NCBI GenBank assembly: GCA_003696155.1
Contig: RFFP01000022.1
Location: forward strand, 1-64,000
From: Acidobacteriota bacterium
GTDB lineage: Bacteria > Aquificota > Aquificia > Aquificales > Aquificaceae
Length of the DNA: 64,000 nucleotides
Direction: 5' to 3'
Shown: positions 12,181 through 60,606 of the stretch, one piece after another
How positions within the stretch are numbered: the stretch's first letter is position 1
Layout of the letters: every line of letters begins with the position of its first letter
Notes under the pieces: model-generated
The model's input: the letters and a program-made list of their open reading frames with translations, nothing else
What the model was told of the DNA's origin: nothing
The model's database searches: none
Made by a program: the position numbers and the translations under genes

Positions 12181-12192
12181 TACAGGTTGACC

Positions 12193-14434
<2,242 letters not shown>

Positions 14435-54957: not shown

Positions 54958-56316
54958 ATGGCGAAGACGTTGCTCATACTATCTGACGAGGATCTCGCTC
55001 TTTCCTTTCTCGCAGACGAAAGGGAAGTACAAAAGGTAAGGGTTGAAATAAAGAACTCTCCAACACTAGTAGACAGCATCTTTAAAGGAAGGGTAAAGAG
55101 ATACGTAAAGGGCATGGACGGTGTTTTTGTAGACATAGGTACAGATAAGGACGCCTACCTACCTACCAAGGGTAAGACCTATAAAATTGGCGAAAGTCTT
55201 ATAGTCCAGCTTGTAAGAGAGCCCGAAGAAAACAGAGGTGCAAAGCTAACGGACAAGATAAAGCTGGTTGGCAAGTATCTGATATATCTACCAAAAGGTA
55301 AGGATATAAAATGCTCTTCAAGGTTGGCCTCTGAGGAAAAAGAAAAACTCTCCACCTTACTAAAGGAATCTCTGAAGGATGAGGGTATCATAGTAAGGAG
55401 CATAGCATATAACGCAAGCTATGAAGAGTTAAAAGAAGACCTAGAGAAGCTAAGGGAGCTCTGGAGTAGTATAGAAAAAAGGGCAAAGGCTGTAAGGAAG
55501 CCCAAAATGCTTATGGAGGAGCTCCCAGCCCATATGGGCCTTATAAGAGAGCACTGGTATGAGTTGGAGGAGATTGTTACCAACGACCCAGAGCTTTGGA
55601 GCGGTATATCCTCCTTCCTTGAAGACTTTGACCCCAACTTGCTAAAGAGAAACGTCTATATAAAGGACCCCTACACTTATATGGTGAAGTATAGGATTCC
55701 CGAAGTGCTTAACAGGTTGTTTAGCAAGGTGGTTTGGTTGAAAGGTGGTGGGTATATGGTTATAGATGAGACGGAAGCTTTCACCGTTGTGGATGTAAAC
55801 AGCGGTGACCCGGTGGGGTCCTGTCATGAAGAGAATGCCCTCAGGACAAACCTGGAAGCAGCCCAAGAACTTGCAAGGCAGATTGTGCTAAGGGACATAG
55901 GTGGTATAATACTTGTTGACTTCATAGATATGAAAAAACAGGAGAACAAGAACTTGGTGATAAGCAGGCTCCAGGAGGCTTTGGGGAGGGAAAGTTGCTA
56001 CACTACCATATACGGTTTTACAAAGCTTGGCATACTGGAGATGGTAAGGAAGAAGAGGGGAAGGAGTGTTGTAAGGATACTTTCCGAACCTTGTAAGGCT
56101 TGTGGCGGTAAGGGGTACATAAAAAGCTCATCTCTGTTCAATCTTAAGGTTCAGAGAGAGCTTATGTCCTATCCTCATAAGAAGGTTGAGCTTTGCGTGC
56201 ATCCCCTTAGATATAACTCAGTAAAAAGGATGTTAGAAAAGAAGAATCTAAGGTACGTGGAACTTCAAGAGTCTAAGGAATTGGGCATGGACAGTTACAG
56301 TATAAGCCATGGTTAA
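54958..56316 (+). CDS. rng: Ribonuclease G (RNase E/G family)
   Basis: A 452-residue endoribonuclease of the RNase E/G family without the long C-terminal scaffold of RNase E. An S1 domain (SIFKGRVKRYVKGMDGVFVDIG) opens the protein. The catalytic metal site has VVDVNSGD and ILVDFIDM, with the zinc-link CKACGGKG near residue 380. It matures rRNA and decays mRNA. The ATG at 54958 was chosen because of the conserved MAKTLLI. It overlaps bamD by 8 nt. Confidence 0.95.
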   Translation: MAKTLLILSDEDLALSFLADEREVQKVRVEIKNSPTLVDSIFKGRVKRYVKGMDGVFVDIGTDKDAYLPTKGKTYKIGESLIVQLVREPEENRGAKLTDKIKLVGKYLIYLPKGKDIKCSSRLASEEKEKLSTLLKESLKDEGIIVRSIAYNASYEELKEDLEKLRELWSSIEKRAKAVRKPKMLMEELPAHMGLIREHWYELEEIVTNDPELWSGISSFLEDFDPNLLKRNVYIKDPYTYMVKYRIPEVLNRLFSKVVWLKGGGYMVIDETEAFTVVDVNSGDPVGSCHEENALRTNLEAAQELARQIVLRDIGGIILVDFIDMKKQENKNLVISRLQEALGRESCYTTIYGFTKLGILEMVRKKRGRSVVRILSEPCKACGGKGYIKSSSLFNLKVQRELMSYPHKKVELCVHPLRYNSVKRMLEKKNLRYVELQESKELGMDSYSISHG

Positions 56317-57202
56317 GCTCATAGCCCTGTTGATGCTCATGTTTATAGGCTGTGCTAAGGTAACGGAAGAGAAAAGGGCAGAACTTGCTACTAAACTGTA
56401 TTCGGAGGGTATGTCCGCTTATTCGAGGAGAGATTACAAGGAAGCAATAAGCAAGCTATCGGAAACGTTAAAGTATATAGACAACCTCAGTCCTGAGGAG
56501 ATAAAATCCGCCAAGTACACCTTGGCTGAGAGTTATTATCTTAGAAAAGACTACGTAAACGCCGTAGTTCACTTTGAGGATTATCTCTTTTACTATCCAG
56601 AAAGTCCGGAGACCGAGCGGGTTTACTTTATGCTCGTGGACAGCTACATGAAGATAGCCCCCGACGCCTACAGGGATCAGAGCTATACTTACAGGGCAAT
56701 AGAAAAGGCAAAGGATTTTCTCAGCAGGTATCCCAACAGCCCCTACGCGGAGCGTGTTATAGACCTAATAGGCTCTGCACAGACAAAGATTGCAAGGCAC
56801 GAGTACCTGGTGGGAAGGTTTTACGAAGACTTTGGATACTACTACTCTGCGTCCCTCAGGTACAAGGACCTTTTGATAAACTTTCCAGAACAGGTCTCTG
56901 AAGCGGAGGTATTATACAGATACATAAAATCTCTCCTCCTTGTGAAGGAGCAGGCAAAGAGGCAGGAAACAAAGTACAAAAGATGGATAGAGGATGCAAA
57001 AAAGCAGATAACACAGATAAAGGGGGAAGAGGACAGAAAGGCTGTAGAGAACAGGATTAAGTTCTTCCAGGGAGAGATAGAAAGGTGGCAGAGGCTTTCC
57101 CAAGAGAGCAGGGAGGAGGGGCTTAGGCTAATGGAGAGGTACAGAGAGACCTACGGTGAAAACAGCTTCTACAGAGAACTGAGGAATTATGCAGGACGGT
57201 AA
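56309..57202 (+). CDS. bamD: BamD-like outer-membrane assembly lipoprotein (TPR)
   Basis: A 297-residue lipoprotein. The signal peptide ends in the lipobox IGCAK (Cys11). Repeated TPR-like helices follow (EGMSAYSRRDYKEAISKLSE, YLRKDYVNAVVHFEDYL, EKAKDFLSRYPNSPYAERV) as in BamD/YfiO, which helps insert outer-membrane beta-barrels. The C-terminal 90 residues are strongly charged and coiled-coil-like, longer than E. coli BamD. It overlaps rsfS by 14 nt. Confidence 0.85.
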   Translation: MVKLIALLMLMFIGCAKVTEEKRAELATKLYSEGMSAYSRRDYKEAISKLSETLKYIDNLSPEEIKSAKYTLAESYYLRKDYVNAVVHFEDYLFYYPESPETERVYFMLVDSYMKIAPDAYRDQSYTYRAIEKAKDFLSRYPNSPYAERVIDLIGSAQTKIARHEYLVGRFYEDFGYYYSASLRYKDLLINFPEQVSEAEVLYRYIKSLLLVKEQAKRQETKYKRWIEDAKKQITQIKGEEDRKAVENRIKFFQGEIERWQRLSQESREEGLRLMERYRETYGENSFYRELRNYAGR

Positions 57203-57530
57203 AGAGCTTCTAAAGATGATAAGGGAGCTTCTTGACAGCAAGAAGGCGGAGGACATAGTGGTTTTGGATGTGTCAAAGCATACCAATATAGCGGACTACT
57301 TTATGATAGCTACAGCCAATTCTAAGGTGCATGCGAAGGCACTCATGGACTATCTTTTGGAGGAGCTTGAAAAGAAGGGCATCAGACCAGACCATGTGGA
57401 AGGTGCGGAGGAAGGTGGCTGGATACTGATAGACCTTATTGATATAATAGTGCATATCTTCCTTAAGGAATGGAGGGAACACTATGACCTTGAGTGGCTC
57501 TATTCCGCTGCAAAAAGAGTAGAGGCATGA
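57189..57530 (+). CDS. rsfS: Ribosome silencing factor RsfS
   Basis: A 113-residue RsfS/YbeB protein that binds L14 and blocks subunit joining in poor conditions. The core DIVVLDVSKHTNIADYFMIAT, HVEGAEEGGWILIDL and DIIVHIFLKEWREHYDLEWL are typical. It commonly sits with nadD, which is not here. It overlaps the LapAB-like gene by 4 nt (ATGA). Confidence 0.95.
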   Translation: MQDGKELLKMIRELLDSKKAEDIVVLDVSKHTNIADYFMIATANSKVHAKALMDYLLEELEKKGIRPDHVEGAEEGGWILIDLIDIIVHIFLKEWREHYDLEWLYSAAKRVEA

Positions 57531-58630
57531 GTGGTTTTAAGCTCATATTTGGCCTTTTGATACTCGCCCTCTTTCTCCTCTTTATAGCACAAAATGCAGG
57601 CTATGTGGACATTAACCTTTTCCACATGGCCTTCAGAGTGCCAATCTTTGTTATCCTGCTTGTCTCCTTTGGTATAGGTTTCCTTATGCCATCCCTCTAT
57701 TTTAGTTTTAGGGAAATGTCTCTAAGGAGCAGGCTTAGCAGGATGGAAAACGTCTTAAAAGAGTTTGCAAGAGGCTATTACGGTAAGGTTGAAAAGCTCC
57801 TGCCACACGGGAGCCCATGGAATGTGTTACTCGTCTTATCTTTGGCAAAGCAGGGAAAGACGGATAGCCTCAAGGGTATTAGTGCAGGTCCTCTCTCTCT
57901 TGCCGGTGAATACCTTATGAGGGGAGAATTTCTCCAGGAGGCTAAGGAGAAGTTTCAAGGGGCTCTGTCTACGGATAGCTTGGACCTTAACGCCCTGAAG
58001 GGTATGAGGGATATAAGCTTTATTGAAGGTGATGTGGATAAAGCTCTTGAATACCAGAGTAAGGTGCTGGATAGCTCAGAAAGATGGGATAGAGAAGCTC
58101 AAAAGGCTATAAGGGCCGAGCTTTTGGGCTATAAATACCTAACGACGGGTGAGGGTGCCTATGTTGAAGAAGCCTTTGACCTGCACAAAAGCCCCTTTGT
58201 ATACTACACATACATACTCTATCTTCTCTCTCAAGATAGGATAAAGGATGCTAAAAAGCATATGGAAAAGGTGTTTTCCCTTGGCTATCAGGAGGATGTG
58301 GTTTGGATGCTCATGGAAAGGGAGGAGGCTTTGGCAAAAGTCTACGACCTTCTTGAAGCCAAGAGAGAGCTTATAAAAGCTGATACACTGGCCATGGTTT
58401 ACATGAAGTTAAACCTCCTTAGTAAAGCCAAGGGCTTGGAGGATACGGTAAGCACTCCCATAAGAGCTCTCCTGCTTAGCTCCCAGTCTCACAGAGAACA
58501 AGACAAACTCTGTCTAATGGGTATAGTTGAACTCCTAAAACCCTTCTCCTGTTCTTGTGGCAAGCCTTATAATAAATACCAGCCCATGTGCGATAGCTGT
58601 TTTAAATGGGGGAGTATAAGGAGGGATTAG
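57527..58630 (+). CDS. LapA-LapB-like fusion protein (TPR and rubredoxin-type zinc ribbon)
   Basis: A 367-residue protein. Two membrane helices (about 5-22 and 39-60) with AQNAGYVDINLF between them form a LapA-type domain. TPR-like helices (about 80-335) follow. The C terminus has FSCSCGKPY and MCDSCFKWGSI, four cysteines (342, 344, 355, 358) that match the C-terminal rubredoxin-like metal site of LapB/YciM. In E. coli LapA and LapB are separate neighbours; LapB regulates LpxC turnover with FtsH. Here the two appear as one chain. The first pair is CxC rather than CxxC. Confidence 0.82.
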   Translation: MSGFKLIFGLLILALFLLFIAQNAGYVDINLFHMAFRVPIFVILLVSFGIGFLMPSLYFSFREMSLRSRLSRMENVLKEFARGYYGKVEKLLPHGSPWNVLLVLSLAKQGKTDSLKGISAGPLSLAGEYLMRGEFLQEAKEKFQGALSTDSLDLNALKGMRDISFIEGDVDKALEYQSKVLDSSERWDREAQKAIRAELLGYKYLTTGEGAYVEEAFDLHKSPFVYYTYILYLLSQDRIKDAKKHMEKVFSLGYQEDVVWMLMEREEALAKVYDLLEAKRELIKADTLAMVYMKLNLLSKAKGLEDTVSTPIRALLLSSQSHREQDKLCLMGIVELLKPFSCSCGKPYNKYQPMCDSCFKWGSIRRD

Positions 58631-59203
58631 ATGCTGGTTGACTTGGACAGAAAGCTCATAAGACTTAAGGTCGTATACTATGGACCTGCTCACTCTGGTA
58701 AGACCACAAACCTTGAAAAGATATCCCAGTTGGAAGGACTGAGCCTGACAAAGATAGACACAAAGGGTGAAAAAACCCTGGTCTTTGATTTTGCTACAAG
58801 GAAGCTTAGGGTGGGGGATATGACCATCTCCATGGCTTTGTACACCGTGCCAGGACAGGACATATACAAAGACATAAGATTAACCGTCATAAGGGGTGTG
58901 GACGGCATAGTTTTTGTTGTCGATGCTCAGAGAGAAAGGCTTGAGGAGAACAAGGAGTTTTTGAAGGTCCTTAAGAAGGACCTAGAGAAGATTGGTAAAG
59001 AACTTGGAAAAGTGCCCATAGTTTTGCAATACAACAAGATGGACCTACCAAACGCGATAGCCTATGGGGATTTGGAAAGAGAGATAAACATGGATAGATA
59101 TCCATCCCTTCCTGCAATTGCCTTAAGTGGAGTAGGTGTGTTAGAAACCCTTGGAAAGCTGGAGGAGCTTCTTCTTTCAAAGATAGAAGGTGTGATTGGA
59201 TGA
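58631..59203 (+). CDS. MglA-type small GTPase
   Basis: A 190-residue Ras-like GTPase of the MglA/Gem1-like bacterial group. The P-loop is GPAHSGKT (residues 18-25). The switch II stretch has TVPGQDIY in place of DxxG, as in MglA. The NKxD motif is in QYNKMDLP, and the C-terminal ALSGVGV fits the SAK position. MglA sets cell polarity and motility in Myxococcus, with the GAP MglB. No MglB/roadblock gene is here; the next gene encodes PATAN-like repeats. It starts directly behind the LapAB-like stop. Confidence 0.92.
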   Translation: MLVDLDRKLIRLKVVYYGPAHSGKTTNLEKISQLEGLSLTKIDTKGEKTLVFDFATRKLRVGDMTISMALYTVPGQDIYKDIRLTVIRGVDGIVFVVDAQRERLEENKEFLKVLKKDLEKIGKELGKVPIVLQYNKMDLPNAIAYGDLEREINMDRYPSLPAIALSGVGVLETLGKLEELLLSKIEGVIG

Positions 59204-60606
59204 TTTCTGGATACATAAGTTCAAGGCAGGAGCTGGTAGACCTTCTCAACGGTTATCTTTCTACAAGGGCTGGTACGCTGGACATTTTCTTTGGTTCTAA
59301 TATTGTATCCCTCTGCGTGGATAGGGGCTTTGTAAAGGGTTTTAGAGTGACTGAAGATGAGCATGTTTACGAAGGTTATAAGAACAAAAGATCCCTTCTC
59401 CTCTATAAGCTTACGGAGTTTTTTGAAAGGCCGGAAGCCTTTTTCACCTTTAGGGAGGAAAAAGTAGAGTGCATAGAATTGGAAGAACCTATACATGCAG
59501 AGGAAATTGTGCTTCAGCTCCAGCTTGCAAATCAGGAGCTTAGGTCTCTTATGGAAAAGGTCATAACACCCATGGCCGTAGTAAGGGTGCTAAAAAAGTT
59601 TGACGACTTTGATTTGTACAGCGATAGAGAAATATATCAGATACTGGTGAATTCGCCAAGAAGCCTAGTTGAAGAGATAAGAAGACTAAAGTCTCTTTTT
59701 TCAGAGGGTTATATAGATATAAGTCAGTTCAACCCTGTTAAAGGAATATCAGAAGACGCAGGTGTGGAGTACCTTTTTAAAAGGGTAGAGTTGGACAAGG
59801 TGAGCATGCCCACTATCTTTGAAAGCCTCCAATTGAGCGGTTTTAGTGGTTTAGTTCAGATTGTTAGCAGCGATGCCCAATTTGAGATTTACTTTAAAAA
59901 AGGTAAGCTTATAGCAGTTTATCCTTATAGTATAGAGATTTTTGATCTTCTCCTCAGTCCTCCTGGAGGTTCTTACTTAAACGTAGTGGATATTAAAACA
60001 AAAATCATAGATTTAATACTTCTCAAACACTCTGAAAACAAGGTTGTGTCTGGACTCCCTGGTTCCTTTGTGGAGATGGGTAAAGTACTTATGGGGATGA
60101 ACAGAGAAAGAAGGACAGGAATGGTAACGGTTTACCTTGAAGGTACAAAGTACTACCTAATGTACAAGGATGGAATACTGATGAGCGTGGTGGAGGATGG
60201 ATGGGATGGGCTGAAGGGTCATAGAACCCTTGTCTTTAGCAGTGTTGGTTGGTTAGACATAGCCTTCTATGAGCCTATGGAGAACGTAAGGATAGTATGC
60301 TATCTCTTCCTGATAAACATCCTATATGGAATACTCCTCAAGCATGCTGGGCATATAAACCAAAGTGTACTATCCTATCTATCTTCCTCCGACATCTTCA
60401 AACACGAGGAAGGTGTCATAACATACAGAAGGATGCCAAAAGACTACGATGGGGTCTTTGCCTTCTTACACTTCCTTTTAGACATGAGCTATAGCATGTT
60501 GGGTAAGGAGAAGTTGGGGGAGGAGCTCCAGATAGCCTTGCAGCCCTACAGGGATATTTTACGTATCATGAAGATTGAGGACTATCTTAGACTTCCTGAA
60601 GCATGA
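59200..60606 (+). CDS. PATAN/DUF4388-type protein with three repeats, partner of MglA-like GTPase
   Basis: A 468-residue protein without a signal peptide. Three copies of a short beta-hairpin core are visible at about residues 22-48 (TRAGTLDIFFGSN), 214-241 (GFSGLVQIVSSDAQFEIYFKKG) and 304-331 (RRTGMVTVYLEGTKYYLMYKDG). This is the core of PATAN (DUF4388) domains, known from cyanobacterial PatA and other signalling proteins. It overlaps both the GTPase and the response-regulator genes by 4 nt, which suggests it works with them. Its biochemical role is unknown. Confidence 0.78.
   Translation: MISGYISSRQELVDLLNGYLSTRAGTLDIFFGSNIVSLCVDRGFVKGFRVTEDEHVYEGYKNKRSLLLYKLTEFFERPEAFFTFREEKVECIELEEPIHAEEIVLQLQLANQELRSLMEKVITPMAVVRVLKKFDDFDLYSDREIYQILVNSPRSLVEEIRRLKSLFSEGYIDISQFNPVKGISEDAGVEYLFKRVELDKVSMPTIFESLQLSGFSGLVQIVSSDAQFEIYFKKGKLIAVYPYSIEIFDLLLSPPGGSYLNVVDIKTKIIDLILLKHSENKVVSGLPGSFVEMGKVLMGMNRERRTGMVTVYLEGTKYYLMYKDGILMSVVEDGWDGLKGHRTLVFSSVGWLDIAFYEPMENVRIVCYLFLINILYGILLKHAGHINQSVLSYLSSSDIFKHEEGVITYRRMPKDYDGVFAFLHFLLDMSYSMLGKEKLGEELQIALQPYRDILRIMKIEDYLRLPEA

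Follow-up and report, generated by a model that had tools for sequence, protein, structure and literature searches.

The analysed stretch of DNA, a window of 64,000 nucleotides, contains a gene that joins a LapA domain and a LapB-like body in one polypeptide. In the encoded protein, a two-helix LapA domain is followed by a superhelix of the TPR type and, at the C terminus, by a ribbon with four cysteines, and the full-length, single-chain form was found with the A1 profile in 52 of the 64 Aquificaceae genomes. Because the whole architecture is kept in these genomes, it is not a product of chance, and we are highly confident that it is a natural, family-wide fusion of LapA with a LapB-like protein. 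In E. coli, LapA and LapB are separate proteins that control the sugar-lipid of the outer membrane. The union of both modules in a single 367-residue frame, proposed in the preliminary description, is borne out by Pfam, by the fold and by the split counterparts in family f5. The complete reading, i.e., that the LapA–LapB-like fusion is a membrane-anchored, LpxC-binding regulator which works without an E. coli-type degron and without YejM, appears rather probable.

The start codon of the fusion gene overlaps the stop codon of rsfS (ATGA) and is aligned with M1 of 29 relatives in the A1 alignment of 30 sequences. Of the 29 relatives with flanks, 26 have the bamD-like gene and rsfS upstream of the fusion gene, and 25 have the small GTPase gene downstream of it. 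The features identified in the window are presented in Table 1.

Table 1. Features of the fusion gene, its neighbours and lpxC in the window.
Feature	Position	Strand	Basis or remark
bamD-like outer-membrane assembly lipoprotein gene	56309..57202	+	TIGR03302, 133 bits
rsfS	57189..57530	+	PF02410, 111 bits; overlaps the fusion gene by 4 bases
LapA-TPR-ribbon fusion gene	57527..58630	+	Open frame, 367 aa; conserved in relatives
LapA_dom, residues 22-79, including the second membrane helix	57590..57763	+	Pfam PF06305
TPR-like superhelix, residues ~99-336	57821..58534	+	Model; best structural match LapB
Four-Cys ribbon, residues 341-367, CSC-x10-CDSC	58547..58627	+	Invariant Cys; aligned to the LapB C terminus
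Small GTPase gene, Arf/Ras kind	58631..59203	+	Directly downstream of the fusion gene
lpxC	12187..13035	+	PF03331, 251 bits; short C-terminal tail

The small GTPase gene and a DUF4388 gene form a pair at positions 58631-60606, directly downstream of the fusion gene, which is kept in most of the family. The pair was not seen beside the fusion in loci L012, L017, L018 and L031, and the fusion is kept there.

The Pfam analysis assigned 35.7 bits to the LapA_dom of the fusion, against a cut-off of 28, and the domain was also detected in 29 of the 30 A1 relatives at E <= 1. The hydropathy profile revealed two N-terminal hydrophobic stretches; both belong to LapA_dom, so the protein has no single helix of the LapB type. 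Two N-terminal membrane helices with a LapA-like part, as the preliminary description had it, are therefore confirmed. The first membrane helix covers residues 3-23, and the structural model places helices at residues 3-23 and 40-82 with low confidence, the whole LapA part being weakly modelled (pLDDT 50-66). A comparison of the fusion-family profile with E. coli LapA using hhalign gave an E value of 1.1e-4. E. coli LapA (YciS, PF06305) shares the two-helix hairpin with LapA_dom; however, it is a separate protein of 102 aa, whereas the Aquificaceae domain continues into the TPR body. A second short frame of 73-85 aa with a borderline LapA_dom lies beside the fusion in G066, G072, G073, G074, G078 and other Aquificaceae.

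The TPR-like region had also been noted before, and both approaches recovered it: repeats were recognised by sequence at residues ~124-186, and the model shows helical pairs over the whole range given in Table 1. The structural model, for which the window protein was combined with six relatives, reached a mean pLDDT of 86, with most of the TPR and ribbon parts above 80. A Foldseek search against 350,542 chains placed LapB in the first four positions. Likewise, LapB entries took ranks 1-4 in VIA-align (Z 14.5-16.7, rmsd 5.0-8.6, 265-317 residues aligned), and the alignment extended to residue 367. The presumed cytoplasmic part of the model, including the ribbon, is thus closest to LapB. The best chain other than LapB, an unrelated TPR protein, scored Z 12.3, at least 2.2 Z units lower. 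As TPR and other repeat folds inflate Z in general, this gap and the full coverage weigh more than the Z value itself. The sequence identity to LapB in the structural alignment is only 12-14%.

The profile searches gave a divided picture, in that PF06305 exceeded its cut-off whereas the LapB models were silent: the window protein matched neither Pfam Zn_ribbon_LapB nor any NCBIfam LapB model at E <= 10. With the threshold set at E <= 1, seven of the 30 A1 sequences matched the Pfam LapB-ribbon model, with 0.035 as the best value; 19 matched an NCBIfam LapB model, and the best of these, with 8e-6, still lies far below the cut-offs of 363 bits or more for these models. When the fusion family was compared as a profile using hhalign, it aligned with E. 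coli LapB over 277 columns (E 1.9e-9) and with the LapB-like family of f5 (E 1.1e-11), in both cases through the ribbon. The LapB kinship of the window protein rests on its relatives and on the fold. The fusion shares with E. coli LapB (YciM) the TPR superhelix and the C-terminal four-Cys ribbon, presumably also the cytoplasmic location of these parts. However, E. coli LapB carries a single N-terminal helix and a ribbon with two CxxC pairs, whereas the window protein carries two LapA helices and a first pair of the CxC type, and it differs further in its low identity and in having no LapB equivalog match.

The cysteines of the ribbon are residues 342, 344, 355 and 358, and all four, together with Tyr351, are invariant in the 30 A1 sequences. 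The C-terminal LapB-type ribbon with CxC described earlier is correct as far as the CSC...CDSC pattern and the LapB-like fold are concerned; its CxC spacing is lineage-specific, and the ribbon model is silent. Of 36 sequences, 24 have CxC as the first pair and 12 have CxxC; in L031 (genus g11), the shortening to CxC affects the second pair instead of the first. On a tree whose alignment included the columns of the trait itself, CxC requires two changes or more, although its starred branches would also be compatible with one origin. CxC is one derived variant, a feature of the lineage and not a defining trait. A tolerance for shorter spacing with all four cysteines retained favours a metal site. 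The most likely role of these cysteines is to bind a metal ion, probably zinc, for structural purposes, and they may also have a redox role. The profile of the ribbon alone, searched against the PDB, found C2H2 zinc fingers first, and LapB was absent among the best 60 entries; for this reason the ribbon sequence was not used as evidence for LapB.

The distribution of the fusion was analysed in 136 genomes of one phylum, so the survey does not limit the fusion to the Aquificaceae. The set comprised 64 genomes of family f1, identified as Aquificaceae by the named relatives L109-L113, 41 of f3, 22 of f5, seven of f2 and two of f4. We take f5 to be Desulfurobacteriaceae-like and f3 to be Hydrogenothermaceae-like. 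The search was performed with A1, a profile of 30 sequences; a single-protein scan of genome contigs gave no match. Besides the full-length cases, the fusion was fragmentary in six f1 genomes (G002, G020, G033, G069, G076 and G081), and the A1 profile detected none in six others (G011, G017, G068, G075, G082 and G087), including G082, which is listed as 98% complete.

In f5, a sister family of the Aquificaceae, the two modules are encoded separately. LapA_dom is present as a short stand-alone frame in 21 of the 22 genomes, and a separate TPR and ribbon frame of 321-375 aa is present in all 22. Where both lie on a single contig, they are widely separated, for example by ~334 kb in G132 and ~356 kb in G131, but by ~5 kb in G122. 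The 19 f5 LapB-like proteins that were read, including one cut at a contig end, have no hydropathy typical of a membrane helix (maximum 1.37, compared with 2.6 in the window protein). PF18073 exceeded its cut-off in the three f5 proteins scanned, and E values down to 2e-29 were obtained with the LapB models, which is still below the cut-offs of the latter. The f5 protein therefore has the same order of TPR and ribbon as the fusion, to which its family is matched by profile, but it has no membrane helix, its LapA is encoded elsewhere, and the LpxC of f5 has a longer tail.

In f3, LapA_dom occurs in short frames in 38 of the 41 genomes, in the loci read often directly after a HIT-like gene. None of the 41 f3 genomes yielded a recognisable LapB-like protein, though 38 of them encode LpxC; a LapB-like protein is thus not needed wherever LpxC is present. 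The ribbon profile matched in f3 mostly frames of ~450 residues among the matches listed, which were taken as RadA by their size. A HIT-like gene adjoins LapA in f3 loci (L032-L061) and the LapB-like gene in both f5 loci read (L093 and L094).

The simplest history is a gene fusion in the line leading to the Aquificaceae; alternatively, the modules may have been split in the other families. A literature search at the level of titles and abstracts, largely outside subscription journals, recognised no report of a LapA–LapB fusion.

The presence of LpxC in the same genome, noted in the preliminary description, was confirmed by the lpxC gene lying in the same window, and FtsH is also encoded in this genome. 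The LpxC tail was defined as the residues after the last conserved motif. In f1, where 19 of the 55 genomes with a match were sampled, all 19 tails are 6-23 residues long, compared with 33 in E. coli, and none has an ending of the E. coli degron type. The tails comprise 34-37 residues in f5 (19 proteins), 26-32 in f3 (11) and 21 in f2 (one protein); the single f4 LpxC read was dropped from the comparison, as it had no motif. Eight of the 11 f3 tails end in LVA or AVA and are degron-like (L118, L128, L132, L133 and L135-L138). PF11893, which we take to be the N-terminal domain of YejM, was found in none of the 64 f1 genomes, whereas the E. coli control gave a match. A turnover of LpxC in the E. 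coli manner, as implied in the preliminary description, is not supported; the link to it is weak because the LpxC tails are short and degron-less and the search for the YejM domain was negative.

In the accessible parts of the sources, E. coli FtsH is described as recognising a C-terminal LpxC degron (PMC12444477), and LapB as binding FtsH through its helix and LpxC through its body (PMC9356133). The LapB ribbon is placed beside the LpxC substrate and active site, and LapB inhibits LpxC (PMC13333357, accessible part). The LapB homologue of Neisseria, Ght, whose host LpxC has no degron, is described as acting without FtsH and is thought to work by holding LpxC at the membrane (PMC12444477, accessible part). 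The fusion and Ght have in common a LapB-like protein and a host LpxC without the degron; Ght was compared by description only, and the accessible part of the source describes no LapA fusion for it.

On the explanation that we favour, the two LapA helices would anchor the TPR/ribbon body to the inner membrane on its cytoplasmic side and would stand in place of LapB's own helix. The body would bind LpxC as E. coli LapB does, which is less sure, and would control the place or the activity of LpxC at the membrane, with the ribbon near the LpxC active site. Such control would operate without a C-terminal degron of the E. coli type and without YejM. By analogy with Neisseria Ght, for which an action independent of FtsH has been proposed, our best guess is that the fusion may dispense with FtsH, and we regard the case for a membrane-held LpxC regulator as evenly balanced.

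Under the nearest competing explanation, the protein would be an FtsH adaptor of the E. coli type, in which the LapA helices take over the binding of FtsH and the TPR/ribbon body hands LpxC over for degradation. It fits a genome that encodes both FtsH and LpxC and a body that is LapB-like; however, E. coli LapB depends on its own helix where FtsH is concerned (PMC9356133, accessible part), and this helix is replaced in the fusion. Moreover, the short, degron-less LpxC tails and the absence of the YejM domain from the f1 genomes speak against it, and we consider this adaptor role unlikely.

TPR proteins often serve as scaffolds, and the small GTPase gene adjoins the fusion gene in most relatives. 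The protein could then be a membrane scaffold for the co-located GTPase and DUF4388 protein, forming a polarity or surface-sensing module, and be LapB-like in shape only. Four of the 29 relatives keep the fusion without the adjoining GTPase, the four cysteines are kept in all 30 sequences, and LapB leads all other folds by the gap given above, which makes this scaffold role quite improbable. Still less credible is a convergent build, i.e., a LapA-anchored TPR protein that acquired its ribbon independently of LapB. The low identity to LapB and the ribbon that alone was not LapB-specific among the best 60 PDB entries would agree with it, but the colinear TPR-then-ribbon chain, its profile match through the ribbon to the f5 LapB-like family and the clear scores of f5 proteins with PF18073 and the LapB models argue against such a build.

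The one-chain fusion and the split f5 forms with a helix-less LapB body provide independent evidence that LapA and LapB work as a unit, and they suggest that LapA anchors the working part of LapB in the membrane. The fusion is a natural clue to the role of LapA. In a more tentative and rather doubtful extension, a soluble LapB body would ancestrally have been held at the membrane by LapA, the latter being split and recruited in f5, fused in the Aquificaceae and replaced by LapB's own helix in Proteobacteria under FtsH/YejM control. If so, LapB would have been an LpxC regulator at the membrane first and a protease adaptor only later. The heat-loving lineage supplies a protein for structural work, and the Aquificaceae offer a system for studying LapB-like control that involves neither YejM nor the degron of E. 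coli. In the window, lpxC on the plus strand and a frame on the minus strand, presumably kdsB-like, converge and share 79 bases at their ends (12957-13035), and the overlap covers the C terminus of LpxC.
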